From assembly GCF_000328625.1 (NCBI RefSeq), contig NC_019978.1:744001-808000 (forward strand): DNA of 64,000 nt. The letters are read 5' to 3'. The stretch's first letter is position 1. Each line of letters opens with the position of its first letter. A model generated the notes under the pieces. The model did no database searches. It had not been told where the DNA came from and saw only the letters and a program-made list of their open reading frames with translations. The position numbers and the translations under genes were made by a program. The stretch comes from Halobacteroides halobius DSM 5150 (GTDB taxonomy: Bacteria > Bacillota > Halanaerobiia > Halobacteroidales > Halobacteroidaceae). Of this stretch, positions 28,909 to 44,101 are shown piece after piece.

Positions 28909-29439
28909 ATGCCTATATCTACCGTTGATAGGGTGAGTAGACTTAAAGAAGATGAAGCAATGAATTTAACTAAGGATGTATTTAATAAGATTGAAAATAA
29001 GTTAGGAAGTGTGCCTAATCTCTTTCGAACTTTAGGACACAAGCCTGATACTTTACGGGCTACGTGGGAATTGATGGAGTCAGTAATGAAGGATGATTTA
29101 TTACCCAGAAAATTAAAAAAATTAGTTGCTCTGCGAGTTTCCATTTTAAATCAAGCAGATTACTGCATTGATAAGCATTATCAAAGTTTGCAACAAATAG
29201 GGTATTCTACTGATGTATTAGAGAGGGTAAAGGTTGGAGAGTATGAGTATTTAACTGAAATAGAAGCTAGAGTATTAAGATTTATAGACAAGTGTCTTGA
29301 TCAAAACTATCAATTGCAAGAACCAGATTTTACAGAATTGCATTTTACAGAAGAGGAATTATTAGAATTAGTAACTGTGATTCAATTATTTGCTGGTCTA
29401 AATTCTTTCACAAGGATTTTAAATATTGAGTTAGATTAA
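28909..29439 (+). CDS. Carboxymuconolactone decarboxylase/AhpD-like protein lacking one redox cysteine
   Basis: 176 residues, all helical, of the peroxidase-related CMD branch. AhpD enzymes carry a C-x2-C-x3-H motif; here the sequence reads NQADYCIDKH, so the second cysteine and the histidine remain but the first is Asp or Ala. Thiol peroxidase activity through a CxxC pair is therefore not expected. GGAGGG precedes the ATG, and a terminator follows. It is 49 bases after nagA but metabolically unrelated. Confidence 0.82.
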   Translation: MPISTVDRVSRLKEDEAMNLTKDVFNKIENKLGSVPNLFRTLGHKPDTLRATWELMESVMKDDLLPRKLKKLVALRVSILNQADYCIDKHYQSLQQIGYSTDVLERVKVGEYEYLTEIEARVLRFIDKCLDQNYQLQEPDFTELHFTEEELLELVTVIQLFAGLNSFTRILNIELD

Positions 29440-29440
29440 A

Positions 29441-29466
29441 AACCCCCATTAATGGGGGTTTTTTTT
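29441..29466. terminator. Bidirectional terminator
   Basis: AACCCCCATTAATGGGGGTT is a perfect 20-bp palindrome followed by T's (and preceded by A's), between two converging genes. Confidence 0.92.
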
Positions 29467-29950
29467 AGTGTTCTCCGCGCATTGTTTGAAGTTTAATGAG
29501 ATGTCGTTTTTCTTCTAAGATTAATTTTTCTAAGGCTTTAATAGCATTAGAATTTTCTTCAACTTGGATTAATTCTTGATAAAGTAATAAGGAGTTTTTT
29601 TCTGCTTTGATACCTATTTTAAGTGCTTCTTCTAAGTTATGAGCAATCTCGTCTATGACTTTTTCATCTTCTGGAAACACTTTACTATCAACCAAAGATC
29701 TTAAGTAGCCACTAACTTCTTCATTATATAAATAATCTTTACTCAAAGATTTATCTTCTTCATTTAAATTATTTAGTAGCCTCTTAAAGTATTGATAGTG
29801 TTCTTCTTCGTCATCTTTTAGTTGAGTAAATAGTTTTTTAACTTTTGGTTTAGAATTAACTTTTGCACATCTTTGGTAAAATTCTTTCCCTTGTTGTTCA
29901 ATATTCATAGCCATTTTTAAGATTTCTAATCCATTTAACTGAATATCCAT
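29465..29950 (-). CDS. Ferritin-like diiron protein (rubrerythrin-related)
   Basis: 161 residues forming a four-helix ferritin-like domain with paired metal motifs: EQQGKEFY and DEEEHYQYF in the first half, KAEKNSLLLY and LEEKRHLI in the second. It lacks a rubredoxin domain. Such proteins act in peroxide reduction or iron handling. The minus-strand site AAGGAGG precedes the ATG. It is read away from the insertion sequence upstream of it, whose end lies 77 bases from its start and may have displaced its promoter. Confidence 0.85.
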   Translation of the reverse strand: MDIQLNGLEILKMAMNIEQQGKEFYQRCAKVNSKPKVKKLFTQLKDDEEEHYQYFKRLLNNLNEEDKSLSKDYLYNEEVSGYLRSLVDSKVFPEDEKVIDEIAHNLEEALKIGIKAEKNSLLLYQELIQVEENSNAIKALEKLILEEKRHLIKLQTMRGEH

Positions 29951-30026: not shown

Positions 30027-31579
30027 GATAGCATCAATTTTTTATAGGTTAATAGTTAAAAATTATTTTCCCAATCAAACAATTGCCTTTAAAGCTCTAG
30101 TTAAACCTGTTCTTTTTCCTATATTTATGCTAGGTATATTCTTCTTAGGCTGAGCAAACTTCTTTTTTAACTTACTATTTATCGTTTTAGATTCAATCTC
30201 TGTTAAAGTTTCTTCTTTTTTTATTTTTTCTTCCTTTCTCAAAAACAATTCTTTCAGTTTTTCTTTATTTCCACCATTAAACTTAAATGCTTGTAATCTA
30301 GACATTTGATCAACACCAGTCTTTGACCAAGCCATTGGTCTTGAACTTAATCTATCTGCCAATATATGGCTTATATGTCCCTCAGCACTACAACCAATTG
30401 CATCTTTATCCTGGGTATAATTCACTATTCCATCCCAATTATTGTAAATATAATGACGTGATTTTCTAATTAAATTCTTTCTTTTCTCATTTTCTTCATT
30501 AGATATCAATTCACTAAAAGCTTCTTTAACTAACTCTTGGTCTGGTTCTTCTAATCCACTCCACAGTTTTTCTTTAACTTCTTTTCTTCCATATCTACTA
30601 GCTCTCCTAAAATACTTAATTAAATGATATCTATCTAATATGTATTTAGACTTAGGAAGCCACTTTAAGCCGCTTTTAATCCATGGTGCTCCATCCCCTA
30701 GTAAAAAGATCTTTTCCACTTTCTCTAACTTATAATTTTCATCTATATAATCCAGTACTTCTAACCACAGCTCTTCTGAATCTTTATATACTCCAGAAAA
30801 ATAGTATTTATTCTTTAATTCTCTCTTATCTCCAACTTCACTTATTCCTTCATGAATATAAACTAATCTAGGCATTGATTTCTTCCCATTTTGTAAAGCT
30901 ACATGATCTTCATCTGCTTCTATATACAAACAGTTTACTTCCCGTTTTTCTGTTACTTCATTTAATTCATTGTTTTCTATTTGCCCTAGCTTTCTTACCT
31001 TATTCATCACTGTTTGGTCACTTATTTCTAAATCGTCTACTGCCTCTTTACCTACCTTATTATAAGCATTTTCTGATGCTAAATCTACTAATTCAGCTTC
31101 TAACGAACTATCCATCCTTTGATATTTCTTTATTCCTAATCTTTCTTCTGCTAAATATTTATACTTATCACTGCTTTTAGAACGATAATATCTTCTTTTA
31201 TACTTCACTTCCCCAAACTTAGTCATTAATTTTCTTTGTTTCTTTTTTACTATCTTCCATTCTTTTTTTCTTTTAGTACTTTCCTTTATTGTTTCATCTA
31301 CTGTTTCTATAACCCATTTAGAAAGCTTTCTACCTAACTCATCAAGATTACTTTTGATTAAATTTATTACTTCTGATATATCCCTTCCTGAATCTAATAG
31401 CACCTCTTTTAATATTTTTTCTAATTCAATGCTGATATTTTCCTCAAATTGTTGTATAATATTGTCCATAAGAGCCATCTCCTTTCTTTGGTTTTGTTGT
31501 GGTTAACAATACCTTATCAAAAGGAGTGGCTCTTTTCTAATTTTTTGGATAAATTCACCTATACTTTTTTTACGCTATC
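30027..31579 (-). mobile_element. Intact ISLre2-family insertion sequence
   Basis: 1553 bases bounded by imperfect inverted ends that both begin GATAGC and share ATAGGT near base 17-24, and flanked by a perfect 9-bp direct repeat. A single full transposase gene fills it on the minus strand. The perfect duplication and the intact gene indicate a recent insertion, between the ferritin-like gene and the Fur-controlled promoter at 31602. Confidence 0.93.
30075..31478 (-). CDS. ISLre2-family (UPF0236) transposase
   Basis: 467 residues. It has the N-terminal helical region and KFGEVKYKRRYYRS segment, then the middle motif LYIEADEDHV and the HLIKYFR region typical of the ISLre2/UPF0236 family, which mobilises elements of about 1.5-2 kb. 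No internal stops. The start ATG has AGGAGATGG-type spacing on the minus strand. The terminal KRTGLTRALKAIV-like end is as expected for full length. Confidence 0.93.
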   Translation of the reverse strand: MALMDNIIQQFEENISIELEKILKEVLLDSGRDISEVINLIKSNLDELGRKLSKWVIETVDETIKESTKRKKEWKIVKKKQRKLMTKFGEVKYKRRYYRSKSSDKYKYLAEERLGIKKYQRMDSSLEAELVDLASENAYNKVGKEAVDDLEISDQTVMNKVRKLGQIENNELNEVTEKREVNCLYIEADEDHVALQNGKKSMPRLVYIHEGISEVGDKRELKNKYYFSGVYKDSEELWLEVLDYIDENYKLEKVEKIFLLGDGAPWIKSGLKWLPKSKYILDRYHLIKYFRRASRYGRKEVKEKLWSGLEEPDQELVKEAFSELISNEENEKRKNLIRKSRHYIYNNWDGIVNYTQDKDAIGCSAEGHISHILADRLSSRPMAWSKTGVDQMSRLQAFKFNGGNKEKLKELFLRKEEKIKKEETLTEIESKTINSKLKKKFAQPKKNIPSINIGKRTGLTRALKAIV

Positions 31580-31601: not shown

Positions 31602-31630
31602 TTGACAATGATAATGATTTTCATTATAAT
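31602..31630 (+). promoter_or_regulatory. Consensus promoter with an embedded Fur-type box
   Basis: TTGACA (31602-31607), a 17-base spacer and TATAAT (31625-31630) form a perfect promoter. Inside it lies a 17-bp palindrome with 7-bp arms (ATAATGA-TTT-TCATTAT, 31611-31627), which matches the Fur box pattern. Binding there would block RNA polymerase when iron is plentiful. It drives the gene set starting at 31728. Confidence 0.88.
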
Positions 31631-31727
31631 TTATAGTGTGATAAGAACTATTATTAATTTAAAATTAACTTTTGTTTAAGGAAAAAAGATAGTTATTGTT
31701 ATTTTTTAATTAGAAGAGGTGTTAGAA

Positions 31728-32702
31728 GTGAAAATTTTAGTGACAGGTGGAGCAGGGTTTATTGGGTCACATCTAGTAGAAGATTTATTAGCTACAGGAC
31801 ATCAGGTAGTAGTAGTAGATAACTTTAATGATTATTATAATCCTCAGCTTAAAGAAGAAAATATTCTTCAATTTATGAAAAGAGATAATTTTAAGGTATA
31901 TCGAACTGACATTTTAAATCAAATTGCTTTAAATAGGATCTTTAAGAGAGAAAAAATAGATAAGGTAATCCATTTAGCAGCTATGGCAGGAGTGCGTAAT
32001 TCTGTTCAACGACCTAATCTATATGTAGATGTAGATATAAAAGGAACAATTAACTTATTAGACCTAGCTAATAAATATAATATTAAGCAGTTTGTTTTTG
32101 CTTCTTCATCTTCAGTTTATGGAACTAGAAGTGAAGTGCCTTTTAGAGAAGATATGAAACTTGATTCACAAGCTTCTCCTTATGCAACTGCTAAAAAATC
32201 GGCTGAACTATTTTGTCGCAATTATCATAATTTATACGATTTAAATATTTCTATTCTAAGGTTTTTTACTGTTTACGGGCCAAGACAAAGACCAAATATG
32301 GCCATTAGTAAATTTACTCGATTGATTGACCAAGGGCAACCTATTCCTATGTTTGGTGATGGTTCTAGTAAAAGAGATTATACATATATTACAGATATAA
32401 TTAAAGGAATTAGATTAGTGTTAATTAATAATCCAGAGTTTGAAATATTTAATCTAGGTTCTAGTTCCCAAATTAAACTTTTAGATTTAATTAATCTAAT
32501 TAGTAGTAATTTAGGCAAGAAAGCTAAGCTAAAGGAACTTCCAGAACAAGAGGGAGATGTGCCAGTTACTTATGCTGATATTACTAAAGCTAAGAATAAG
32601 TTAAATTATCGACCTCAAGTAGATATTGAGGTTGGAATTAGAAAATTTACTGATTGGTATCAAAGTGCTAAAAGTAGGTTAGGTGAAAGACTTGGCAGTT
32701 GA
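31728..32702 (+). CDS. NAD-dependent nucleotide-sugar epimerase (UDP-glucuronate/galactose 4-epimerase-like)
   Basis: 324 residues of the extended SDR family. N-terminal ILVTGGAGFIGSHL binds NAD; the catalytic residues are in SSSSVYG and SPYATAKKSAE (Tyr-x3-Lys); RFFTVYGPRQRP is typical of UDP-glucuronate 4-epimerases. It should make an activated sugar for the glycosyltransferases of this operon. I chose the GTG at 31728, which has AAGAGG eight bases upstream; a GTG at 31719 is also in frame. It overlaps the next gene by 20 bases. Confidence 0.88.
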   Translation: MKILVTGGAGFIGSHLVEDLLATGHQVVVVDNFNDYYNPQLKEENILQFMKRDNFKVYRTDILNQIALNRIFKREKIDKVIHLAAMAGVRNSVQRPNLYVDVDIKGTINLLDLANKYNIKQFVFASSSSVYGTRSEVPFREDMKLDSQASPYATAKKSAELFCRNYHNLYDLNISILRFFTVYGPRQRPNMAISKFTRLIDQGQPIPMFGDGSSKRDYTYITDIIKGIRLVLINNPEFEIFNLGSSSQIKLLDLINLISSNLGKKAKLKELPEQEGDVPVTYADITKAKNKLNYRPQVDIEVGIRKFTDWYQSAKSRLGERLGS

Positions 32703-33570
32703 GGAGTTATTAAAAGCAGGTAAATTATTAATGGCTCATCCTGATTTATTATTAGTCTTTGCAGTAGGTTATTCTTTAGCTTTCTGGTTAAGATCAGTTG
32801 CATGGCTGGGATTATTTAATAAAAAAAGAGTGACTGTTAGCAACTTATATTCTTTACATATGGTCTCTTTATTAGTTAATCATCTCTTTCCTACCAAGCT
32901 AGGTGAAGTAGCTAAGATTTATCTGTTAGGCCAAGAGGGGTATACTAGTCAAAAAGCAACTTCAACAGTCTTATATAGCCGGGTAATTGATTTAATTTCG
33001 TTATTAATTAATTTGTTTTTATTTGTTAGTTTATCAATTAAGCATATCAGTTTTGACTGGAAGTTATTTATCTTACCTGCAATTATAATCTTAACTATTT
33101 GTATTAGTATAGTTTGGTTTAGCCGTTGGCAATGGATTAAGAAGTTTGAAGCTAAGCTCTTTGATTATTTAGCACAGCTACAGATAGCTTTAAAAGAGAT
33201 TAAGTCTAAGCAGTTGATTAAAGCTATATTACTTACTATTCCTAGTTGGGTTTTAGAAGTTAGTGCTTTGGCAGTAGTAGTTAAGGCATTGAATTTAGAG
33301 ATAGGATTAATTCCTTTGCTTGTAGTTAATAGTTTTACTATTATGGCTCAAGTATTTCATATTACTCCAGGAGGAGTAGGTACTTATGAGGCAAGTATGT
33401 CTTTTGCTTTGAGTCTTTATGGAGTTGATTTAGAAACTGGATTAACAATTGCAGTCTTAACCCATAGCTTAAAATTTGTTTATTCTTATTTAGTAGGTGG
33501 TCTATTTACTTTACGAGAGTCAATTAATTTAATGGATATAGTAAGATTTAAGAAAAAGTTAGCTTCTTAG
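32683..33570 (+). CDS. LPG-synthase-TM (UPF0104) membrane protein, flippase-like
   Basis: 295 residues with about seven transmembrane helices and the family marks NHLFPTKLGEVAK and TPGGVGTYE. This is the PF03706 fold of the MprF flippase half and of AglD-like proteins. In a gene set with a polyprenyl-phosphate glycosyltransferase, moving a lipid-linked sugar across the membrane is the simplest role, but this is an inference. The GTG start lies inside the epimerase gene, so translation is probably coupled. Confidence 0.82.
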   Translation: MKDLAVEELLKAGKLLMAHPDLLLVFAVGYSLAFWLRSVAWLGLFNKKRVTVSNLYSLHMVSLLVNHLFPTKLGEVAKIYLLGQEGYTSQKATSTVLYSRVIDLISLLINLFLFVSLSIKHISFDWKLFILPAIIILTICISIVWFSRWQWIKKFEAKLFDYLAQLQIALKEIKSKQLIKAILLTIPSWVLEVSALAVVVKALNLEIGLIPLLVVNSFTIMAQVFHITPGGVGTYEASMSFALSLYGVDLETGLTIAVLTHSLKFVYSYLVGGLFTLRESINLMDIVRFKKKLAS

Positions 33571-33583
33571 AAAGGAGAATTTT

Positions 33584-35044
33584 ATGAAGAAGGCCTCAGA
33601 TTTTGAAGTTTGGGCAGCCAGAGCTTGGAATTTATTAAATGAAGGAAAGTCTTTTTATCCTATATTTTCAGTAGGTATCTTTTTATTATACCATTATCAG
33701 CAATGGAGTAGTTTTAGTTTCTGGCAGTCTACTTTACTGGTTATATTGATTAATCTACCATTACTTATTACTTATATTAGATATGATTTTCCTCTTAAAT
33801 TAAGATGGTTTTTATGGGTGCCACTAATTGGATTTATAATTGCTTTTAATTATTGGAATTTAAAATTAGTCGGATTAGATTTAGGAGTTTATTTATTCTT
33901 TACTGTTATCTTTTGGGGGACAATTTATTATCATTTACGAATTGGAACTACTTTGACTAATTTTACTCGTTTTTGGAAGTTGGTTTTAAAGAATAGTGAC
34001 TCGACTAGTGGAAATTTTCAAGAACAAGTTCCTAAGACGTTGGTTACAATCTTAAGTTTAAATTATAGTTATCTATATTTAACTGGACAATTACCAATAG
34101 GAAGATCGACATTTGTTATTAAATATATAATATTCTTTTTAATTACTGTTGTAGGTGCAATTATAATTCACCATAAATTATTTAATTGGAAGCCTGAGCA
34201 GTATCAAGAGTTGACTAATAATGCTCAAGTGACAGAACCTCTTACCAATAGAGTGATAATGATTATTATTGATGGTTGTAGGAAGGATCGCTTGGCCCAA
34301 GCAGATACTCCATTTATTGATCAACTAAGAGAAGAAGGAACAGAGTATACACAGATGGAGACTATCTATCCAGCTCGAACAGTAACTTGTTTCTCATCTT
34401 TATTTACAGGTACTTATCCTGATGAGCATGGGATTAAGAGTAATTTAGTTTTGGATTTAGGAATTAAGACTGAAAGTATCTTTGATAAATTAAGACAGCA
34501 GGATAAAAAAGGGAAGTTATTAGGTATAGCTCATTTAATTGATGCTTTTGGCGAAGAAGATGTAGAAGCAATAACAGCTGTAATGGATAATGATCAGGCA
34601 GATGGTCACATAATTAAGCGGGCCAAGGATATTATGAAGCAGGAAGCACCTGAGCTATTGATTACTCAGTTAATCAGTACTGACCAGACAGGACATAGTC
34701 GTGGTGCTTTATACTCTGAATATAAAGAGAAGATTGAAGAAGCTGATAGACATATTAGTGGTTTTGTCAATTGGTTAACAGAAGAAGGTTTCATGGAAAA
34801 TACTACTTTAATTATTGCTGCTGATCATGGACAGAGTGATGGGATTGGTGGACATGGCCATTTAGATGAAGGTGAAAGATATGTTCCGTTCATTATAAAT
34901 GGACCCCAGATTAAAGCTGGATTAAGAATAGAGGATAAAAGAAGTATAGTTTCAGTAGCACCAACGATTAGTTATTTATTAGGGGTAGATTATCCTGATT
35001 ATTCTCGAGGGCCAGTGCTAACAGAAGCAATTGATAAGTCATAA
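33584..35044 (+). CDS. Membrane-anchored alkaline-phosphatase-superfamily phosphodiesterase
   Basis: 486 residues. About six hydrophobic helices fill residues 20-205. A type I phosphodiesterase/nucleotide pyrophosphatase domain follows: MIIIDGCRKDR (metal Asp), ARTVTCFSSLFTGTYP (nucleophile Thr), STDQTGHSRG, AADHGQSDG and GGHGHLDEG (metal His/Asp). Possible substrates are nucleotide sugars or lipid-linked phosphates. AAGGAG precedes the ATG. It sits between the flippase-like gene and the glycosyltransferase. Confidence 0.87.
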   Translation: MKKASDFEVWAARAWNLLNEGKSFYPIFSVGIFLLYHYQQWSSFSFWQSTLLVILINLPLLITYIRYDFPLKLRWFLWVPLIGFIIAFNYWNLKLVGLDLGVYLFFTVIFWGTIYYHLRIGTTLTNFTRFWKLVLKNSDSTSGNFQEQVPKTLVTILSLNYSYLYLTGQLPIGRSTFVIKYIIFFLITVVGAIIIHHKLFNWKPEQYQELTNNAQVTEPLTNRVIMIIIDGCRKDRLAQADTPFIDQLREEGTEYTQMETIYPARTVTCFSSLFTGTYPDEHGIKSNLVLDLGIKTESIFDKLRQQDKKGKLLGIAHLIDAFGEEDVEAITAVMDNDQADGHIIKRAKDIMKQEAPELLITQLISTDQTGHSRGALYSEYKEKIEEADRHISGFVNWLTEEGFMENTTLIIAADHGQSDGIGGHGHLDEGERYVPFIINGPQIKAGLRIEDKRSIVSVAPTISYLLGVDYPDYSRGPVLTEAIDKS

Positions 35045-35085: not shown

Positions 35086-35835
35086 GTGAAGAAAGTTACA
35101 GTCATTATTCCTGCTTTAAATGAAGAAGCTACAGTAGGAAAAGTAATTGAGAAAGTACCGCGAGGAGAAGTAACAGATGTTGAATTTGACATTTTAGTTA
35201 TAGATGATGGTTCAACTGATAAAACAGTTCAAGTTGCTAAAGAAGCTGGAGCAGAATATATTATTTCGCACCAAGAAAATTGGGGATTAGGGGCTACAAT
35301 TAGACAAGGTTTAAATTGGGCCTACCAACAAGGTACAGATATTGGTGTAATGATTGATTCTGATAATGAGTATCCAGCCCAAGAAATTGATAATTTAATT
35401 GAACCTATTTTAGATGATAAGGCTGATTATGTATTAGGTTCTAGATTTATGAAGCAGGTTAGAGGTATGGTACCCATCAGAAGAATTGGTAACTATTGTT
35501 TCACCTTATTACAGTCTATGTTATTAAGAAAGTGGATTACTGATGGACAGACGGGAATGAGGGCCTTTAGTAAAGAAGTAATGAGGGATTTTAGAATAAT
35601 TCATGATTATAATTATGCTCAAGTAATTACTCTTAATATTTTGCGACAAGGTTATAGGTTGGCCCAAGTTCCTATTAGTTATTCAGTAAGACAGACTGGA
35701 GATTCTTTTATTAAATTTAGGGAGTATATGACTAAAGTAGTCCCTGCTATTTTTAAGGAGATGACTACTGCACCAGAAAAAGAAGTTAATAATCAACAAT
35801 TAATAAAAGGTAGTGAACAAGTAACTGTTGATTAA
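35086..35835 (+). CDS. Polyprenyl-phosphate glycosyltransferase (DPM1/GT2 family)
   Basis: 249 residues, GT-A fold: VIIPALNEEATV at the N-terminus, IDDGSTDKT, the metal motif DSDNEYP, and DGQTGMRAF as in dolichyl-phosphate mannose synthases. No C-terminal membrane helices. It should place a sugar on a polyprenyl phosphate carrier. With the flippase-like and GT-C genes it completes a classic lipid-linked sugar pathway. The GTG start has AAAGGAAGG upstream. Confidence 0.88.
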   Translation: MKKVTVIIPALNEEATVGKVIEKVPRGEVTDVEFDILVIDDGSTDKTVQVAKEAGAEYIISHQENWGLGATIRQGLNWAYQQGTDIGVMIDSDNEYPAQEIDNLIEPILDDKADYVLGSRFMKQVRGMVPIRRIGNYCFTLLQSMLLRKWITDGQTGMRAFSKEVMRDFRIIHDYNYAQVITLNILRQGYRLAQVPISYSVRQTGDSFIKFREYMTKVVPAIFKEMTTAPEKEVNNQQLIKGSEQVTVD

Positions 35836-35851
35836 AATTGTTATTAAGTAT

Positions 35852-35892
35852 AATTGACAATGTTTTTAATTATCAATTCTACATTGTCAATT
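35852..35892 (+). repeat. Inverted repeat before the secreted-protein genes
   Basis: AATTGACAATGT (35852-35863) and ACATTGTCAATT (35881-35892) are perfect 12-bp arms around a 17-base loop. There is no T run. It could be an RNA-processing or stabilising stem, or an operator. Confidence 0.65.
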
Positions 35893-35917
35893 GTTAATTA
35901 TATAAGGAGGGGTTAAT

Positions 35918-36550
35918 ATGTTAAAATCTACAAGAAAAGTTGGAACTTTAGTTCTTATGTTGGCTTTGGTAGTAGGTCTGTCAAGTGTTGCTTTAGGTTA
36001 TTCTTATGGTACTAAAGAGAAAGACCCTTTAGTGAAAGCCTATGAAGAAGTTGTATTTAGTTTAAATAAGAGTGATCAGGACTGGGAAGAAGTAAAAGAA
36101 GAAACAGAAAAGATAGAGGATAAGTTAGAATTTTTACAAAAAGAGTTAACTGAAATTAATGCAGCAAGTCCATTCATTACTGATTACATAGCTAATATTA
36201 AATCAGGAATTGAGGCTAAAGATAAAGAGAAAATTATTCATAACTTTCAGTTAGCACTAGCAGGAAATGTAGAGCGTAGATTAGAATCAGCTCAAAAGGA
36301 AATTTCAGAGTATAAGACTGCTAAAGCTTTAGTGAAGAAGGCAAAAGGATTTTATGAAGCCTTAGAATTAACTATTAAAGCAAATAATCCAGAAGGGAAT
36401 GAAAAAGCTGAAGAAGCTTTAAGAAATTGCTTAAGTTCATTAGGAAACCCAGGTATGTTTGGCTTTGGAGCCCAAGAACCTAATTTAGAGAAGTATAAAG
36501 CTAATAAAGAAGTTGTTCTTAACGTTTTAACTGAAGTTGTTGCTAAGTAG
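35918..36550 (+). CDS. Secreted helical protein, short relative of the HExxE-repeat proteins
   Basis: 210 residues. A clear signal peptide (positively charged start, hydrophobic core about 9-25, cleavage near ALG-YS). The rest is predicted helix, rich in Glu and Lys. The segment AKGFYEALELTIKANNPEGNEKAEEALRN (read in parts: AKGFYEALEL and EKAEEALRNCL) aligns by eye with the end of the next two proteins, but the HExxE motif is replaced by LESAQKE. One Cys only. I do not recognise the family. AAGGAGGGG precedes the ATG, suggesting high expression. Confidence 0.75.
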   Translation: MLKSTRKVGTLVLMLALVVGLSSVALGYSYGTKEKDPLVKAYEEVVFSLNKSDQDWEEVKEETEKIEDKLEFLQKELTEINAASPFITDYIANIKSGIEAKDKEKIIHNFQLALAGNVERRLESAQKEISEYKTAKALVKKAKGFYEALELTIKANNPEGNEKAEEALRNCLSSLGNPGMFGFGAQEPNLEKYKANKEVVLNVLTEVVAK

Positions 36551-36557
36551 TAGAATT

Positions 36558-36592
36558 AAATATCAGGTAAGTTCAATCCTTGCCTGATATTT
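36558..36592 (+). terminator. Hairpin after the first secreted-protein gene
   Basis: A 14-bp stem (AAATATCAGGTAAG with CTTGCCTGATATTT) without a good T run. It may be a 3'-end stabiliser or a partial terminator. Confidence 0.5.
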
Positions 36593-36628
36593 ACAAATAA
36601 CTAAACACTCTTAAGGAGGGCCAAAAAG

Positions 36629-37723
36629 ATGAATATTAGAGTTAAAAAGGGAACAATTGCTTTTGTATTTGTAGCATTATTTATGTTGGGAACTAGTAGT
36701 GTTTTTGCAGCTTCTTTACCATTAAAGACTGACGTTTCTAAGCAGCAAAGAAGGGTAGAAGCTTATAAGCAAATAAGAAATGCTAATCCACAAGGAAGAC
36801 TTGCTTTTGGTGATATAGAGAGATTATATGATGGGATATTAAAAGATATGGTAGAAGCAAGAGATGAAGAATTTGGAACAAGTCTGAATCAATATATTAA
36901 AGCAGCTTTTAATGGAGCTAAAAATGGTCAAGACCCTCAAGTAGCTGCCCAGATTATTGATAAGACCCTTAAAAAAGCTTTTTATCTAACAGTCAAGCAT
37001 GAGTTAATAGAAGCAATTGAGGAGATTGAAAAGACTGAAGAGGCTCATCATAAGTTAGATGAAGCTATTGTATATTATGAAGTTTTAGCTAGTACTGTCA
37101 AAGAAGAAGATAAGCAATTAAATCAGCATATTATATCTGGTTTAAAGATTGCTCGGCAAGCGATAAAGAATAAAAATCTAAGTAAATTAAAGATTGCAGC
37201 TCAGATTGTAGATAAAAATATAATCAATGCTTTTTATGATGTAATATTACATGAAATAAAAGAAGTAGAGGAGTATGCATCTACTAACCCTGCTGAAGCA
37301 AAAATAGAAAAATTAGAAGGATTACTTTATTATCAAGCAATTAAAGGTAAAGTAAAAACTGGGAATAAAATTGGAAATGCTGTAATCGAAGGTATGTTAA
37401 AGGGGCCAATTGATGCTGTAGATTATGATGTAATTGCTGAAGAGCTAAATCGAGGTTTTGTAGCAAAAGTATTACATGAGTTAGAAGAAGTAGAAGAAGA
37501 TTGGGGCGAACAAGAAGCAATTGTTAAGGCTTGGGAAGGTTTATTATACTATAATATTTTCCAAAATGATGTTAAAGATAAGTTAGGTGTTAAGAAAGCA
37601 GAGGAGTTACTGGTTAACTTACGTCAATTAACTAAAGCAACTAAGTCCGAAGATAAAGGAATAGCTAAAGAATTGATAGAACAAATTGAAGATGATATTC
37701 AATCTTATTTTGTTCAATTGTAA
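36629..37723 (+). CDS. Secreted HExxE-repeat helical protein A
   Basis: 364 residues; signal peptide with cleavage near VFA-AS (about residue 27). The mature part is almost all helix and has three diverged units of about 80 residues. Each has a helix with His-Glu and further acidic residues (KHELIEAIEEIE at 123, LHEIKEVEE at 207, LHELEEVEE at 282), followed about 20 residues on by an aromatic motif (AIVYYEVL, GLLYYQAI, GLLYYNIF). His/Glu on one helix face with nearby Tyr pairs suggests metal binding. I do not recognise the family. AGGAGGG precedes the ATG. Iron-linked function is inferred from the Fur boxes on both sides. Confidence 0.78.
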   Translation: MNIRVKKGTIAFVFVALFMLGTSSVFAASLPLKTDVSKQQRRVEAYKQIRNANPQGRLAFGDIERLYDGILKDMVEARDEEFGTSLNQYIKAAFNGAKNGQDPQVAAQIIDKTLKKAFYLTVKHELIEAIEEIEKTEEAHHKLDEAIVYYEVLASTVKEEDKQLNQHIISGLKIARQAIKNKNLSKLKIAAQIVDKNIINAFYDVILHEIKEVEEYASTNPAEAKIEKLEGLLYYQAIKGKVKTGNKIGNAVIEGMLKGPIDAVDYDVIAEELNRGFVAKVLHELEEVEEDWGEQEAIVKAWEGLLYYNIFQNDVKDKLGVKKAEELLVNLRQLTKATKSEDKGIAKELIEQIEDDIQSYFVQL

Positions 37724-37732
37724 GTAAAAATT

Positions 37733-37766
37733 AGTTGTCTGAGGTTCTCTTAGACAACTTTTTAAA
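37733..37766 (+). terminator. Terminator after repeat protein A
   Basis: An 8-bp perfect stem (AGTTGTCT with AGACAACT), extended by three inner pairs, then TTTTT. It should make protein B partly or wholly separate in expression. Confidence 0.8.
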
Positions 37767-37789
37767 TCAAAGTTTAGGGAGGAAATAAA

Positions 37790-38968
37790 ATGTTTAAAAT
37801 TAGTAAAAGAAGCAGTTTGTTAGTTATGGTACTGGCTTTAGCCACAGTAGTTTCTTTAAGTAGTACTACCTATGCTTTTTCTTTCTTTGGATTATTTGAC
37901 TTTGGTAGTAATGAAGCTGAGAATACAGTAAGTGTAAAAGAAGTTAGAGTTAAGCTAACATTACCACTAAAGACTGATGTAACTAAACAGATAAATCGAG
38001 TTAAAGCTTATAAAAGGATTAATCAATTAAGACATGAAGAAGATATTAATTTTATTAAAATTGAAAAAATCTATGATAAGTATTTAGAAGGAATGGTTAA
38101 AAGTAGAGATAAAGAATTCAATCAAACAATGAACCCATATATTGAGGCAGCTTTTAATGGCGTTAAAAATGGTCGAGCCCCTCAAATAGGGTCCCAGATT
38201 ATTGATAAGACACTAAAAAAAGCCTTCTACTTGACAGTAAAACATGAGTTAGTTGAGGCAATTAAAGAGATTGAAGAAAGTAAAGAAGCTCATCATAAAT
38301 TAGACGAGGCAATTGTTTACTATCAAGTTTTATCTAATATGATTAAAGAAGAAAATAAAAAAGTAAACCAAAATATTATATCCGGCTTAAAGACTGCTCG
38401 GCAAGCTATAAATAAAAATAATCCTGGTAAGTTAAGGATTGCAGCTCAAATTGTAGATAAAAATATAATTAAAGCTTATCATGATGTAATCTTACATGAA
38501 GTAGAAGAAGTAGAAGAGTATGATTCTACTGACCCTGCTGAAGCAAAAATAGAAAAACTAGAAGGATTATATTATTATCAAGCAATTAAAGATAAAGTAA
38601 AGCCAGGTAATAAGATAGGAAGTAAAATGATTGAGAAGCAATTAACTGGACCAAGTATTAAAGTAAAATATAATCCAATATCTAATGAATTAAATCGAGG
38701 TTTTGTAGCAAAAGTATTTCATGAATTAGAAGAAGTAGAAGAAGAATGGGGCAAACCAGAGGCTTCTGTTAAGGCTTGGGAAGCATTATTATACTATAAT
38801 ATAGTCCATGATAATGTTAAAGAAAAATTAGGTGCTGATAAAGCTAAAAATTTATTAACTGATTTACGCACATTAACTAAAGCAGTTGCCAATGGGGATA
38901 AGATAAAAGTAAAGGAGTTAGAAGCTAAAGTTAAATCTCAATTAAGAAACTATATTGGTCAAATTTAA
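37790..38968 (+). CDS. Secreted HExxE-repeat helical protein B
   Basis: 392 residues, a close paralogue of protein A with the same three units (KHELVEAIKEIE, LHEVEEVEE, FHELEEVEE) and the same YY motifs. The N-terminus differs: a signal peptide ending near TYA-FS, then a short Phe/Asp-rich and Asn/Glu linker (residues about 30-55) absent from A. Conservation is highest in the HExxE helices and the SGLKxARQAI segment, which marks them as the functional core. AGGGAGG precedes the ATG. Unknown family; the paralogue pair implies a dimer or two ligands. Confidence 0.78.
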   Translation: MFKISKRSSLLVMVLALATVVSLSSTTYAFSFFGLFDFGSNEAENTVSVKEVRVKLTLPLKTDVTKQINRVKAYKRINQLRHEEDINFIKIEKIYDKYLEGMVKSRDKEFNQTMNPYIEAAFNGVKNGRAPQIGSQIIDKTLKKAFYLTVKHELVEAIKEIEESKEAHHKLDEAIVYYQVLSNMIKEENKKVNQNIISGLKTARQAINKNNPGKLRIAAQIVDKNIIKAYHDVILHEVEEVEEYDSTDPAEAKIEKLEGLYYYQAIKDKVKPGNKIGSKMIEKQLTGPSIKVKYNPISNELNRGFVAKVFHELEEVEEEWGKPEASVKAWEALLYYNIVHDNVKEKLGADKAKNLLTDLRTLTKAVANGDKIKVKELEAKVKSQLRNYIGQI

Positions 38969-39005
38969 AGAGATAGGCTGCCTATTTGGGCAGTCTTTAC
39001 TCTTT
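38967..39005 (+). terminator. Hairpin after repeat protein B
   Basis: AAAGAG and GGCTGCC pair with GGCAGTC and CTCTTT in a long two-part stem starting at the stop codon. The T run is poor, so read-through into the glycosyltransferase gene is possible. Confidence 0.6.
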
Positions 39006-40541: not shown

Positions 40542-40570
40542 TTGACAGGTTATACATATCTTACTATAAT
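40542..40570 (+). promoter_or_regulatory. Consensus promoter of the iron transporter operon
   Basis: TTGACA (40542-40547), a 17-base spacer and TATAAT (40565-40570): a perfect match, just upstream of a Fur-type box. Confidence 0.9.
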
Positions 40571-40582
40571 TTATTACATAGG

Positions 40583-40597
40583 TGATAATTATTATCA
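40583..40597 (+). promoter_or_regulatory. Fur-type box of the iron transporter operon
   Basis: TGATAATTATTATCA is a perfect 7-1-7 palindrome of Fur/Bacillus type (TGATAAT-N-ATTATCA), 13 bases after the -10 element, where a repressor would block the transcription start. Confidence 0.9.
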
Positions 40598-40677
40598 ATT
40601 TCATCTATAAGATTATGTGCACTATTGTAGTAAGAATAAAAACCAAATAACAAAATCTAGAGGAGATGATGAGGTAT

Positions 40678-41721
40678 ATGAAAAAAGTACTACTAATATT
40701 TACTTTAGCAGTAATTTTGAGTACAGTTACAGTTTCAACAGCATCAGCTGGTTTTTTTGATTTTTTATTAGGAGAAGATAAAGGTGTTGTTAATGTTTAT
40801 ACTAGTAGGCATTATGAAGCTGATGAAAAATTATATGAACAATTTGAAGAAAAAACGGGGATTAAGGTAAATGTATTAAAAGGTCGGGCTGATGCGTTAA
40901 TTGAACGAATAGAGAGAGAAGGTCAATCTACATCAGCTGATCTATTAATTACTTCTGATGCTGGTAGATTATATAGAGCTAAAAAGAAAGGGTTATTGCA
41001 ATCTGTCAAGAGTGAGAAATTATTTAATAATATACCAGCTAATTTAAGGGATCGGGATAATCAATGGTTTGGGTTGACTGTTCGAGCCAGAATTATAGTT
41101 TATGCTAAGGATAGAGTGGATATCTCTAAACTGTCTACATATGAAGACTTAACAGATAAAAGATGGGAAGGTAGAATTTTAGCTAGGACTTCATTAAATA
41201 TTTACAATCAGTCTTTATTAGCTTCTTTCATAGCTTTAAAAGGTGAGGCAGCTGCTAGAGAATGGGCAGCAGGAATTGTGAATAATATGGCTCGACGCCC
41301 AAAAGGAAATGATACAGATCAAGCCATAGCTGTTGCTGCAGGTGTTGGTGACTTAGCCATTATGAATACTTATTATTTGGGTAGAATGTTAAATTCATCT
41401 AATCTAAAAGAAGTAAAATTAGCCCAAAAACTAGGAGTCTTCTTTCCTAAAAAGACCCATATTAATGTAAGTGGAGTTGGACTTACTAAGTATGCTAAAC
41501 ATGAAGAGAATGCTATTAAATTAATGGAATTCTTATCAAGTCAAAAGGCACAAAAGATTTTTGCTAATGCTAATTATGAATATCCGGCAAACCCAGAGGT
41601 AGAAGCTTCAGATCTATTAAAATCATGGGGAGATTTTGAAACTCAAGATATTAATTTAACTAAACTAGGAAAATACAACCAGAAAGCAGTTAAAATCTTC
41701 AGTGAAGTAGGGTGGCAATAA
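40678..41721 (+). CDS. fbpA: Ferric-iron ABC transporter substrate-binding protein (FbpA/FutA family)
   Basis: About 347 residues with a signal peptide (MKKVLLIFTLAVIL, cleavage near ASA-GF). The mature part begins with VVNVYTSRHYEADEKLY, the FbpA/FutA signature, and has a tyrosine-containing NTYYLGR segment that matches the iron-binding tyrosine pair of the family. There is no lipobox cysteine. It binds Fe(III) outside the membrane and hands it to the permease. I prefer the ATG at 40678; an ATG at 40666 overlaps its own ribosome binding site. A terminator follows, so the binding protein is probably made in excess. Confidence 0.93.
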   Translation: MKKVLLIFTLAVILSTVTVSTASAGFFDFLLGEDKGVVNVYTSRHYEADEKLYEQFEEKTGIKVNVLKGRADALIERIEREGQSTSADLLITSDAGRLYRAKKKGLLQSVKSEKLFNNIPANLRDRDNQWFGLTVRARIIVYAKDRVDISKLSTYEDLTDKRWEGRILARTSLNIYNQSLLASFIALKGEAAAREWAAGIVNNMARRPKGNDTDQAIAVAAGVGDLAIMNTYYLGRMLNSSNLKEVKLAQKLGVFFPKKTHINVSGVGLTKYAKHEENAIKLMEFLSSQKAQKIFANANYEYPANPEVEASDLLKSWGDFETQDINLTKLGKYNQKAVKIFSEVGWQ

Positions 41722-41781: not shown

Positions 41782-43395
41782 GTGTTGAAGAAAAGAGATA
41801 TTAAATCTTTGTTTAATATATGGTCTGTTTTGAGCTTTATTATTGTCTTGCTAGTTTTAATTCCTAATCTTAATATTTTGCTAAATATCTTTAAACCAGT
41901 AAATGAAAATTGGCAACATATAAAGGAATATCTGCTAAAAGACTATATAATAAGTTCAACTATTTTAGTTTTATTTACAGGTGTTTTTTCCATTTTTATG
42001 GGCTTGATACCAGCTTGGTTTGTTACCCAATATAATTTTCCTGGACGTGATTTTTTCAACTGGGGATTAATTTTGCCTTTAGCTATTCCACCTTATATTG
42101 GTGCCTATACATATACTGGTTTATTAAATTATACAGGAGTTATACAGACATTTTTACGAGATAATGGTATAGAATTAAACCAAGCTTATTTTGATATAAT
42201 GACAATAGAAGGTGCAATCTTTATTTATACAATCTTTTTGTTTCCTTATGTTTATATTTTAACAAGGTCATTTTTAGCAAAGCAGTCCGCTTCTTTAATA
42301 GAATCAGCTAGAACTTTAGGCAGAAGTCCTTTTGAGATTTTTTGGCATGTAGTGTTACCAATTTCTAGAGGAGCTATTGTTGCCGGAGTGAGTTTAGTAA
42401 TCTTAGAGGTTTTGAATGATTATGGAGTTGTCAAATATTTTGGTATTTCAACCTTTAGTACTGCTATCTTTAGGACTTGGTTTGCAATGGGAGATTTAAA
42501 TTCGGCAGTCAAACTATCGGCTTTATTGATGTTATTTGTTTTTACTGTTTTATTAATTGAGAAGTTTTCACGGGGCGGGAGAAGATTTAGTTACAGTACT
42601 ACGAAAGTAAGGCCTGTTTCTCGTCAGAAATTATCTGGGGTAAAGGCTTATTTAATTTCGGGGTTTTGTTCCTTAATCTTTAGTATTGGTTTTTTAGTAC
42701 CTACATTGCAATTATTACATTGGAGCTGGTTAAGCTATGCTGAAATACTAGATTTGGAGTTTATTGTTTTTACCCTTAATTCTTTATCTGTTGCTTTATT
42801 TTCTTCCGCTTTGATTATTGTTCTAGCAGTAATTATTGCTAATACTGCTAGAATTAATGATAATATACTATCTAAGTTATACGCAAAGATTGCTTTACTT
42901 GGTTATTCAATTCCTGGGGCAGTCATAGCTGTTGGGATTTTATTATTTTTTATAATTTTAGATAATGCCTTGAACACTGTATTAAGATCAAGTATAATAA
43001 TGCTTATTTTTGCTTATGTAATAAGGTTTTTAGGTATTGGTTATAACTCTGTTGAATCAGGATTTGATAAAGTTGGTGACAGTTTCTTTGAAGCATCACG
43101 TACCCTTGGTAGAGGAATTACTGAAACTTTTTTTAAAGTCGATTTCCCTATGATTAAGCCAGCAGTAATTAGTGGGTTTTTACTTGTTTTAATTGAAGTA
43201 TTAAAGGAACTCCCTCTGACTTTAATTTTAAGACCTTTTAATTTTGATACATTGGCTAGTAAAGCTTTTGAATATGCAGGGAATGAAATGATACATGAGG
43301 CTGCTTTATCATCTATAATTATAATATTAATTTGTGGAATTGCTATCTATTATATTCACAAATTAGGAGGCAAGGAGGATAAAGATGTTCGTTGA
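41782..43395 (+). CDS. fbpB: Ferric-iron ABC transporter permease (FbpB family, fused two-domain)
   Basis: 537 residues with about twelve transmembrane helices in two BPD-type halves. Each half has the loop that docks the ATPase: ESARTLGRSPFEIFWHVVLP near residue 175 and EASRTLGRGITETFFKVDFP near 435. This doubled permease is usual for Fe(III) importers of the Fbp/Fut class. The start is GTG with GGTAGGTG upstream. Its end overlaps the ATPase gene by 11 bases, so the two are coupled. Confidence 0.93.
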   Translation: MLKKRDIKSLFNIWSVLSFIIVLLVLIPNLNILLNIFKPVNENWQHIKEYLLKDYIISSTILVLFTGVFSIFMGLIPAWFVTQYNFPGRDFFNWGLILPLAIPPYIGAYTYTGLLNYTGVIQTFLRDNGIELNQAYFDIMTIEGAIFIYTIFLFPYVYILTRSFLAKQSASLIESARTLGRSPFEIFWHVVLPISRGAIVAGVSLVILEVLNDYGVVKYFGISTFSTAIFRTWFAMGDLNSAVKLSALLMLFVFTVLLIEKFSRGGRRFSYSTTKVRPVSRQKLSGVKAYLISGFCSLIFSIGFLVPTLQLLHWSWLSYAEILDLEFIVFTLNSLSVALFSSALIIVLAVIIANTARINDNILSKLYAKIALLGYSIPGAVIAVGILLFFIILDNALNTVLRSSIIMLIFAYVIRFLGIGYNSVESGFDKVGDSFFEASRTLGRGITETFFKVDFPMIKPAVISGFLLVLIEVLKELPLTLILRPFNFDTLASKAFEYAGNEMIHEAALSSIIIILICGIAIYYIHKLGGKEDKDVR

Positions 43396-44101
43396 GATTG
43401 AAAATTTAAATTTTAAATATAAAAATTCAGCAGAAGACATTCTAAATGATTTTACCTTTAGTGTAAAAGAGGGAGATATAGTCTGTATCTTAGGAGAAAG
43501 TGGGAGTGGGAAAAGTACTGTATTAAGATTAATATCTGGACTTGAGGAACCTAATCAAGGAACTATAAAGATCAATAATGATATTGTGGTTAATGATAAT
43601 AATTTTGTTTCTCCTGAAGAAAGAGAAGTAGGTATGGTATTTCAGGATTATGCTTTATTTCCACATATGACAGTAGCAGAGAATATATTATTTGGTGTAA
43701 AAGGTAAAAGTAAAGAATATAAAAAGAAAAAATTGGCTGAAGTGTTGAAATTGATTGGCTTAGAAGAGCTAAAAAATAGATATCCCCATCAAATTAGTGG
43801 GGGACAGCAACAGAGGGTAGCTCTAGCTCGAGCATTAACAATTGGCCCTTCTTTGATAGTGATGGATGAACCTTTTAGTAGTCTTGATGCAAATCTCCAA
43901 TCTAAAATCAGAGAAGAGTTAAGAAAGATCATTAAAAGAACAGGAATAACTTCCATTTTTGTTTCTCATGATAAAGAAGATGCTATAAGTATAGCAGATA
44001 AAATAGTAGTTTTAAAAGATGGGCGAATAGTTCAACAAGGTGATTCGCAAGAGTTGATTTCCAATCCAACTTCTGATTATGTAGCTGGTCTTTTCAAATA
44101 A
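43385..44101 (+). CDS. fbpC: Ferric-iron ABC transporter ATP-binding protein
   Basis: 238 residues: Walker A GESGSGKST, Q-loop VFQDYALFPHM, signature ISGGQQQR, Walker B LIVMDEPFSSLD and H-loop SHDKEDA. It energises the permease encoded by the overlapping gene. It is shorter than many FbpC proteins because it has no C-terminal regulatory domain. Confidence 0.94.
   Translation: MFVEIENLNFKYKNSAEDILNDFTFSVKEGDIVCILGESGSGKSTVLRLISGLEEPNQGTIKINNDIVVNDNNFVSPEEREVGMVFQDYALFPHMTVAENILFGVKGKSKEYKKKKLAEVLKLIGLEELKNRYPHQISGGQQQRVALARALTIGPSLIVMDEPFSSLDANLQSKIREELRKIIKRTGITSIFVSHDKEDAISIADKIVVLKDGRIVQQGDSQELISNPTSDYVAGLFK

Follow-up and report, generated by a model that had tools for sequence, protein, structure and literature searches.

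The tandem genes P0001 and P0002 of Halobacteroides halobius DSM 5150 encode two secreted proteins that probably act as Fur-controlled extracytoplasmic iron-capture and hand-off proteins for the iron permease encoded in the same gene cluster. Both genes lie within a stretch of 64,000 nucleotides (contig NC_019978.1, positions 744,001 to 808,000 of the forward strand), which is referred to as the window. Catching iron outside the cell and handing it to an importer is the most likely role because genes of this family adjoin importer genes and Fur-box-like sites across many bacteria. The proteins, here called FEA-like, are embedded in the following features of the window:

31602–31630, plus strand: perfect sigma-70-type promoter match (TTGACA-17-TATAAT) at the head of the cluster
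31609–31623, plus strand: Fur-box-like site with one mismatch, TGATAATGATTTTCA, in the spacer of the 31602 promoter
31719–32702, plus strand: c5, NAD-dependent epimerase/dehydratase (Pfam PF16363/PF01370), conserved neighbour
32683–33570, plus strand: c2, LPG_synthase_TM membrane protein (PF03706), conserved neighbour
33584–35044, plus strand: c3, membrane phosphodiesterase/alkaline-phosphatase-like protein (PF01663), conserved neighbour
35086–35835, plus strand: c4, family 2 glycosyltransferase (PF00535), conserved neighbour
35918–36550, plus strand: c1 (P0003), a short helical protein that is secreted and shares homology with the N-terminal portion of the FEA-like proteins
36629–37723, plus strand: FEA-like protein 1 (P0001), secreted, with three helical HExxE/YY units
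36878–37102, plus strand: P0001 unit 1 (residues 84–158), with H124, E125, E128, E145, Y149 and Y150
37103–37357, plus strand: P0001 unit 2 (residues 159–243), with H208, E209, E212, E230, Y234 and Y235
37358–37585, plus strand: P0001 unit 3 (residues 244–319), with H283, E284, E287, E303, Y307 and Y308
37733–37759, plus strand: terminator-like hairpin between the FEA-like genes (12-bp stem, T run)
37790–38968, plus strand: FEA-like protein 2 (P0002), tandem paralogue, with units at residues 112–186, 187–271 and 272–347
38975–38996, plus strand: terminator-like hairpin past P0002
39089–40519, plus strand: c12, GT-C/PMT_2-type glycosyltransferase (PF13231), conserved neighbour
40542–40570, plus strand: perfect sigma-70-type promoter match (TTGACA-17-TATAAT) upstream of the FbpA-like gene
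40583–40597, plus strand: Fur box of the 7-1-7 type without mismatch, TGATAATTATTATCA, just past the 40542 promoter
40666–41721, plus strand: FbpA/FutA-type ferric-binding protein (PDB matches 2pt1 at 7e-94, 1y4t, 1q35 and others)
41782–43395, plus strand: FbpB-type ABC permease (PF00528)
43385–44101, plus strand: FbpC-type ABC ATPase (PF00005)

The first-pass annotation had described two secreted, helical paralogues at 36629–38968, each built from three units with an HExxE motif and a following YY pair, and this description holds. The open reading frames lie at these coordinates, signal peptides were recognised by reading the sequence, and the AlphaFold model of P0001 (pLDDT 83, pTM 0.82) consists of helical hairpins throughout. 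The mature proteins carry neither a Cys residue nor a lipobox; the mature protein is acidic, with 40 Glu and 20 Asp per 336 residues. P0001 and P0002 are 64% identical over the matched part and are sister sequences in the tree (support 100/99), which makes a tandem duplication in the lineage of the window the simplest origin of the pair as judged by sequence; the related genomes G008 and G012 carry one FEA-like copy each and the window two.

The HExxE motif of P0001 starts at residues 124, 208, and 283 and the YY pair at 149, 234, and 307. The P0002 set—HExxE at 152, 236, and 311; YY at 177, 261/262, and 335—is the P0001 set shifted by 28 residues, so that the same His, Glu, and Tyr positions do recur three times in both copies, as had been noted. 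The YY pair, placed by the annotation about 20 residues past the motif, follows the His at a spacing of 24–26 residues in both proteins. From the composition of P0001, 0.07 HExxE motifs are expected and three are observed (P ~6e-5); the remaining window proteins, with approximately 18,200 residues, contain only two. The units score 57.0 (units 1 and 2), 33.9 (units 1 and 3), and 33.5 (units 2 and 3) in profile–profile comparison, and column-shuffled controls reach at most 18.7 (n = 300). Because the unit scores exceed those of the shuffled controls, the units represent a true internal triplication. The longer string V/L-x-H-E-x-x-E-x-E-E, which had been assigned to every unit, is found in strict form in units 2 and 3 only; unit 1 reads HELIEAIEE. 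In the close orthologue L003, the His of unit 3 is replaced by Gly.

By profile comparison, P0001 and P0002 are distant relatives of the NCBIfam FEA1-related lipoproteins (NF038033), their only consistent family match, at 25.7 and 24.4 bits (E-values of 4e-6 and 1e-5). The profile matches all four Halanaerobiales members, with E-values from 4e-6 to a best of 3.6e-9, as well as many Bacillales relatives, down to 8e-15, and in 61 related genomes it finds P0001, P0002, and two orthologues and nothing else. The similarity runs through the C-terminal two thirds of the profile. The curated cut-off of NF038033 is 250 bits; P0001 and P0002 lie far below it and it is reached in no Bacillota genome searched, and the members above the cut-off fall outside this sampled phylum. 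The family had been called unknown in the first-pass annotation, which proposed a profile search. This stands insofar as P0001 and P0002 match no Pfam family and a PDB sequence search gave no credible relative of the FEA-like proteins; it has to be amended by the distant relatives below the NF038033 cut-off. Foldseek searches (PDB and viral) gave no credible fold relative of P0001, and viral contigs contained no relative of the FEA-like proteins. The Pfam family Fea1 (PF07692) matched nothing at E ≤ 10 in 27 genomes and was not found by hmmscan of P0001. Since PF07692 does not match, the putative kinship to algal FEA1 is that given by the name of the NCBIfam family.

A profile of the four Halanaerobiales FEA-like sequences (A1) found a homologue in a Bacillota genome at 2e-24, and homologues are present in 45 of 150 genomes of that Bacillota order—approximately a third, as counted by the NF038033 search and leaving out two terminal-fragment matches. 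The order is called Bacillales by inference from gene content. Against the A1 profile, the fetched Bacillales homologues found with NF038033 give E-values of 2e-17 to 2e-56. They are lipoproteins of approximately 400 residues, the lipobox being recognised by reading the sequence; matches to the first ~100 positions of NF038033, or to the first 100 of the A3 profile, were discounted as lipobox or linker noise. The A3 alignment holds 24 members, four from Halanaerobiales and 20 from Bacillales. One locus (L055, 4297–6726, genome G375) encodes a double-length FEA-like protein of 810 residues that contains two FEA regions; around the start of its gene lie two Fur-box-like sites, both perfect. Solo FEA-like genes outside any such cluster were seen in two Bacillales genomes (L054 and L056).

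The Bacillales genes belong to a conserved cluster with the usual order FEA-like gene, c5, c2, c3, c4, c1, FTR1, c12; a few loci lack some of these genes or have a rearranged order. All 19 Bacillales cluster loci have an FTR1/EfeU-type permease (PF03239 at 1e-40; NCBIfam EfeU at 6e-53) directly beside c1 or within the cluster, and a search of eight such genomes found no other FTR1. The genes c2, c3, c4, c1, FEA-like, and c12 are retained in the cluster of the window, G008, and G012, and in all three of these Halanaerobiales genomes FbpABC takes the place of FTR1 within the cluster. No FTR1 was found genome-wide in the window genome (G000); G008 and G012 encode a different, long FTR1 located outside the cluster. 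The exchange of FTR1 for FbpABC next to the same helper genes points to an iron-delivery module independent of any single transporter.

The only perfect promoter matches in the region are those at 31602 and 40542. The window contains four Fur-box-like sites with at most one mismatch, compared with 0.12 expected; the two that do not accompany a promoter, at 29169 and 34254, lie inside reading frames, the former (one mismatch) within an ORF neighbouring a ferritin-like gene. In the Bacillales loci, sites with at most one mismatch are found upstream of c1 in 16 of 19 and upstream of the FEA-like gene in 13 of 19, counted with corrected gene starts at L047, L048, and L053, where long misread starts were fixed by reading; a site upstream of fbpA is present in all three Halanaerobiales genomes. 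No such site precedes c2, c3, c4, c12, FTR1, or FbpB, and for c2, c3, c4, and c12 this covers approximately 80 upstream regions. Fur homologues are encoded in G000, G008, G012, and G247. The iron-regulated setting recognised in the first-pass annotation is borne out by these sites together with FTR1 in Bacillales and the ferric-type FbpABC in Halanaerobiales, and the cluster is, by these signals, a putative Fur-regulated iron-import cluster. Two inverted repeats were also observed: a perfect ten-base one, AAATATCAGG...CCTGATATTT, at 36560–36595 between P0003 and P0001, and TTGACAATG...CATTGTCAATT at 35853–35900 upstream of P0003, a possible regulatory site or small repeat.

The short companion c1, which in Bacillales directly precedes FTR1, reaches an hhalign score of 78 against the FEA-like profiles, judged against reversed controls of 19–21 and block-shuffled controls of at most 32, as pairwise hhalign E-values are uncalibrated. 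By this homology, three related secreted proteins are encoded in a row in the window. The mature part of c1 starts with an invariant YSYG (alignment A4), and the Bacillales versions carry a membrane anchor at the end. Peptidase_M75 matches weakly in eight of 14 c1 proteins (best E-value 1e-4), and an hhalign comparison of c1 with Escherichia coli EfeO was not supportive. The structure model of c1 (pLDDT 60) is too poor for use. The idea that c1 corresponds to the N-terminal domain found on long FTR1 proteins was considered and rejected.

Taken together as a mechanism, low iron would cause Fur to leave the promoters at 31602 and 40542. Then c1, P0001, and P0002 would be present on the outer side of the cytoplasmic membrane along with the importer. 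Iron would be bound via repeated acidic sites—one invariant Glu per helical unit in addition to D111—to which His may have been added in the Halanaerobiales branch. The iron would be kept near the membrane and passed to the permease, which would be FbpA/B/C here and FTR1 in Bacillales. A wider formulation, tentative and somewhat short of an even chance, is that of a modular capture system in which the FEA-like proteins and c1 bind ferric or ferrous iron at three acidic sites related by pseudo-symmetry and supply the permease present in the lineage, FTR1 in Bacillales or FbpABC in Halanaerobiales. This would be the bacterial equivalent of the FEA1/FTR1 pair of algae.

The candidate ligands follow from the conservation in the A3 alignment, in which Y67, D111, K112, E145, K196, E230, E303, and a few others are invariant across all 24 members. 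E145, E230, and E303 are the Glu residues four positions before each YY pair, i.e. one per unit. The first-pass annotation had instead proposed the repeated His, Glu, and Tyr residues as iron sites, and the corresponding reading—H-E-x-x-E and Tyr themselves form three iron sites, with the invariant Glu facing His across each hairpin—is rather unlikely. It draws on the three-fold recurrence in both copies and on the model, in which HExxE is predicted on the first hairpin helix and Glu/YY on the second; the position sums of H124 and E145, H208 and E230, and H283 and E303 lie within 1–2 of the loop symmetry point, so that each His is expected to face its Glu approximately. Among the 24 members, 19 retain H124 (15 of the 20 from Bacillales) and 14 retain H283 (11 of 20), but H208 occurs only in the four Halanaerobiales proteins, and the H208/E209 pair is absent from all 20 Bacillales members. 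The second Tyr of the pair is kept in 19 (unit 1) and 20 (unit 2) of the 24 members and is mostly Ile in unit 3 (Y308); the first Tyr (Y149 and Y307) is mostly Phe. Moreover, five of the 20 Bacillales members (subgroup B: L016, L061, L062, L065, and L066) lack the HE pair and the YY of unit 1, yet the FTR1 cluster is retained in each of them, as is a Fur box without mismatch at c1. Because orthologues that retain the cluster vary or lack His and Tyr, these residues are not supported as core ligands of the family, and the Glu—invariant, one per unit—is the better predicted ligand; some lineages may have elaborated on it with His. The iron reading of the first-pass annotation was right in its context, and its choice of ligands was probably wrong as a family rule.

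Two further readings place the proteins beside iron binding itself. Proteins that assist the permease in a structural or chaperone-like way, or that bind a chelate, haem, or siderophore instead of free iron, would likewise travel with the permease, as the FEA-like gene and c1 do, and a conserved HxxE need not bind metal: one structural study of proteins of the imelysin/EfeO type found that it bound neither zinc nor ferric ion (PMC3143127), and EfeM retained iron in another study (PMC9174327). The acidity of the mature protein and the invariant Glu of each unit, however, suit direct cation binding, and such a partner role is unlikely. The FEA-like proteins could also belong to a surface-glycan cluster with the iron genes as incidental neighbours, given the five conserved glycan or envelope genes, but the Fur-box-like sites precede the FEA-like gene and c1 and not c2, c3, c4, or c12, and the cluster always includes FTR1 or FbpABC, so that this reading is very improbable. 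Many of the cluster genes being envelope-glycan genes with no role in iron nevertheless counts against the iron role, as do the solo genes L054 and L056. That the glycan neighbours glycosylate these surface proteins is a guess. For iron capture and hand-off, the comparison with known systems is as follows.

FEA1 of the alga Chlamydomonas reinhardtii is a secreted protein of approximately 360 residues and the major secreted protein under iron deficiency, with a mechanism called unknown (PMC8098128). According to the title of Allen 2007, as cited in PMC7676907, it is co-expressed with FTR1 and FOX1. Fea1 of Ostreococcus tauri was found iron-loaded and has duplicated domains (PMC4855317). The likeness to algal FEA1 would be that of a secreted protein of iron starvation tied to FTR1, and the corresponding signals here are Fur-box-like sites and linkage to FTR1; in contrast, the Pfam family Fea1 matches no FEA-like member. 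From the Bacillales lipoproteins matched by NF038033, the window proteins differ by having no lipobox, and all matches to that profile, in Halanaerobiales and Bacillales alike, lie far below 250 bits.

Like the FEA-like cluster, the EfeUOB system combines a permease of the FTR1 type with iron regulation and with an all-helical HxxE partner outside the cytoplasm (EfeO or EfeM); the FEA-like cluster differs in that neither an EfeB peroxidase nor a cupredoxin was identified in it. Peptidase_M75 (PF09375) matches neither P0001 nor P0002, is absent from the listed matches of the A3 members, and was not found in G000; with regard to a possible mutual exclusion of the two families, it occurs over its cut-off in two of 23 FEA-positive genomes (G000, G008, and G012 included) compared with six of 20 FEA-negative ones. 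The FEA-like proteins were also considered as distant EfeO proteins, which was not supported: hhalign to E. coli EfeO was no better than a short chance match. FetMP and P19-type systems likewise combine an FTR1 permease with an extracytoplasmic helper, but stand separately: in G008, G012, and G003, a cluster (L101, L102, and L103), judged FetMP-type by eye, contains a long FTR1, a P19/Tpd-like protein, and MacB-like ABC genes and no FEA-like gene. Ferric ABC transporters of the FbpABC/FutABC type sit in the window cluster itself, with a Fur box, and FbpA is unrelated in sequence to the FEA-like proteins. To our knowledge, no accessory helical protein belongs to Fbp systems.

A description of a bacterial FEA–FTR1 cluster was not found in the literature searched. 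The known bacterial FTR1 helpers, EfeO and EfeM, are themselves poorly understood (PMC9174327), and the FEA-like proteins add a widespread type of helper, linked to FTR1 or FbpABC, for which no paper was found in the library searched. If the bacterial family is truly related to the algal one, bacteria have the FEA-like/FTR1 pairing as well, and in them gene deletion, 55Fe uptake, and biochemistry are straightforward. On the minus strand of the window, the ferritin-like gene (29465–29950) encodes a protein with a weak relation to the encapsulin cargo EncB and the iron exporter MbfA, and an ISLre2 family transposase gene (30075–31478) lies directly upstream of the cluster promoter.
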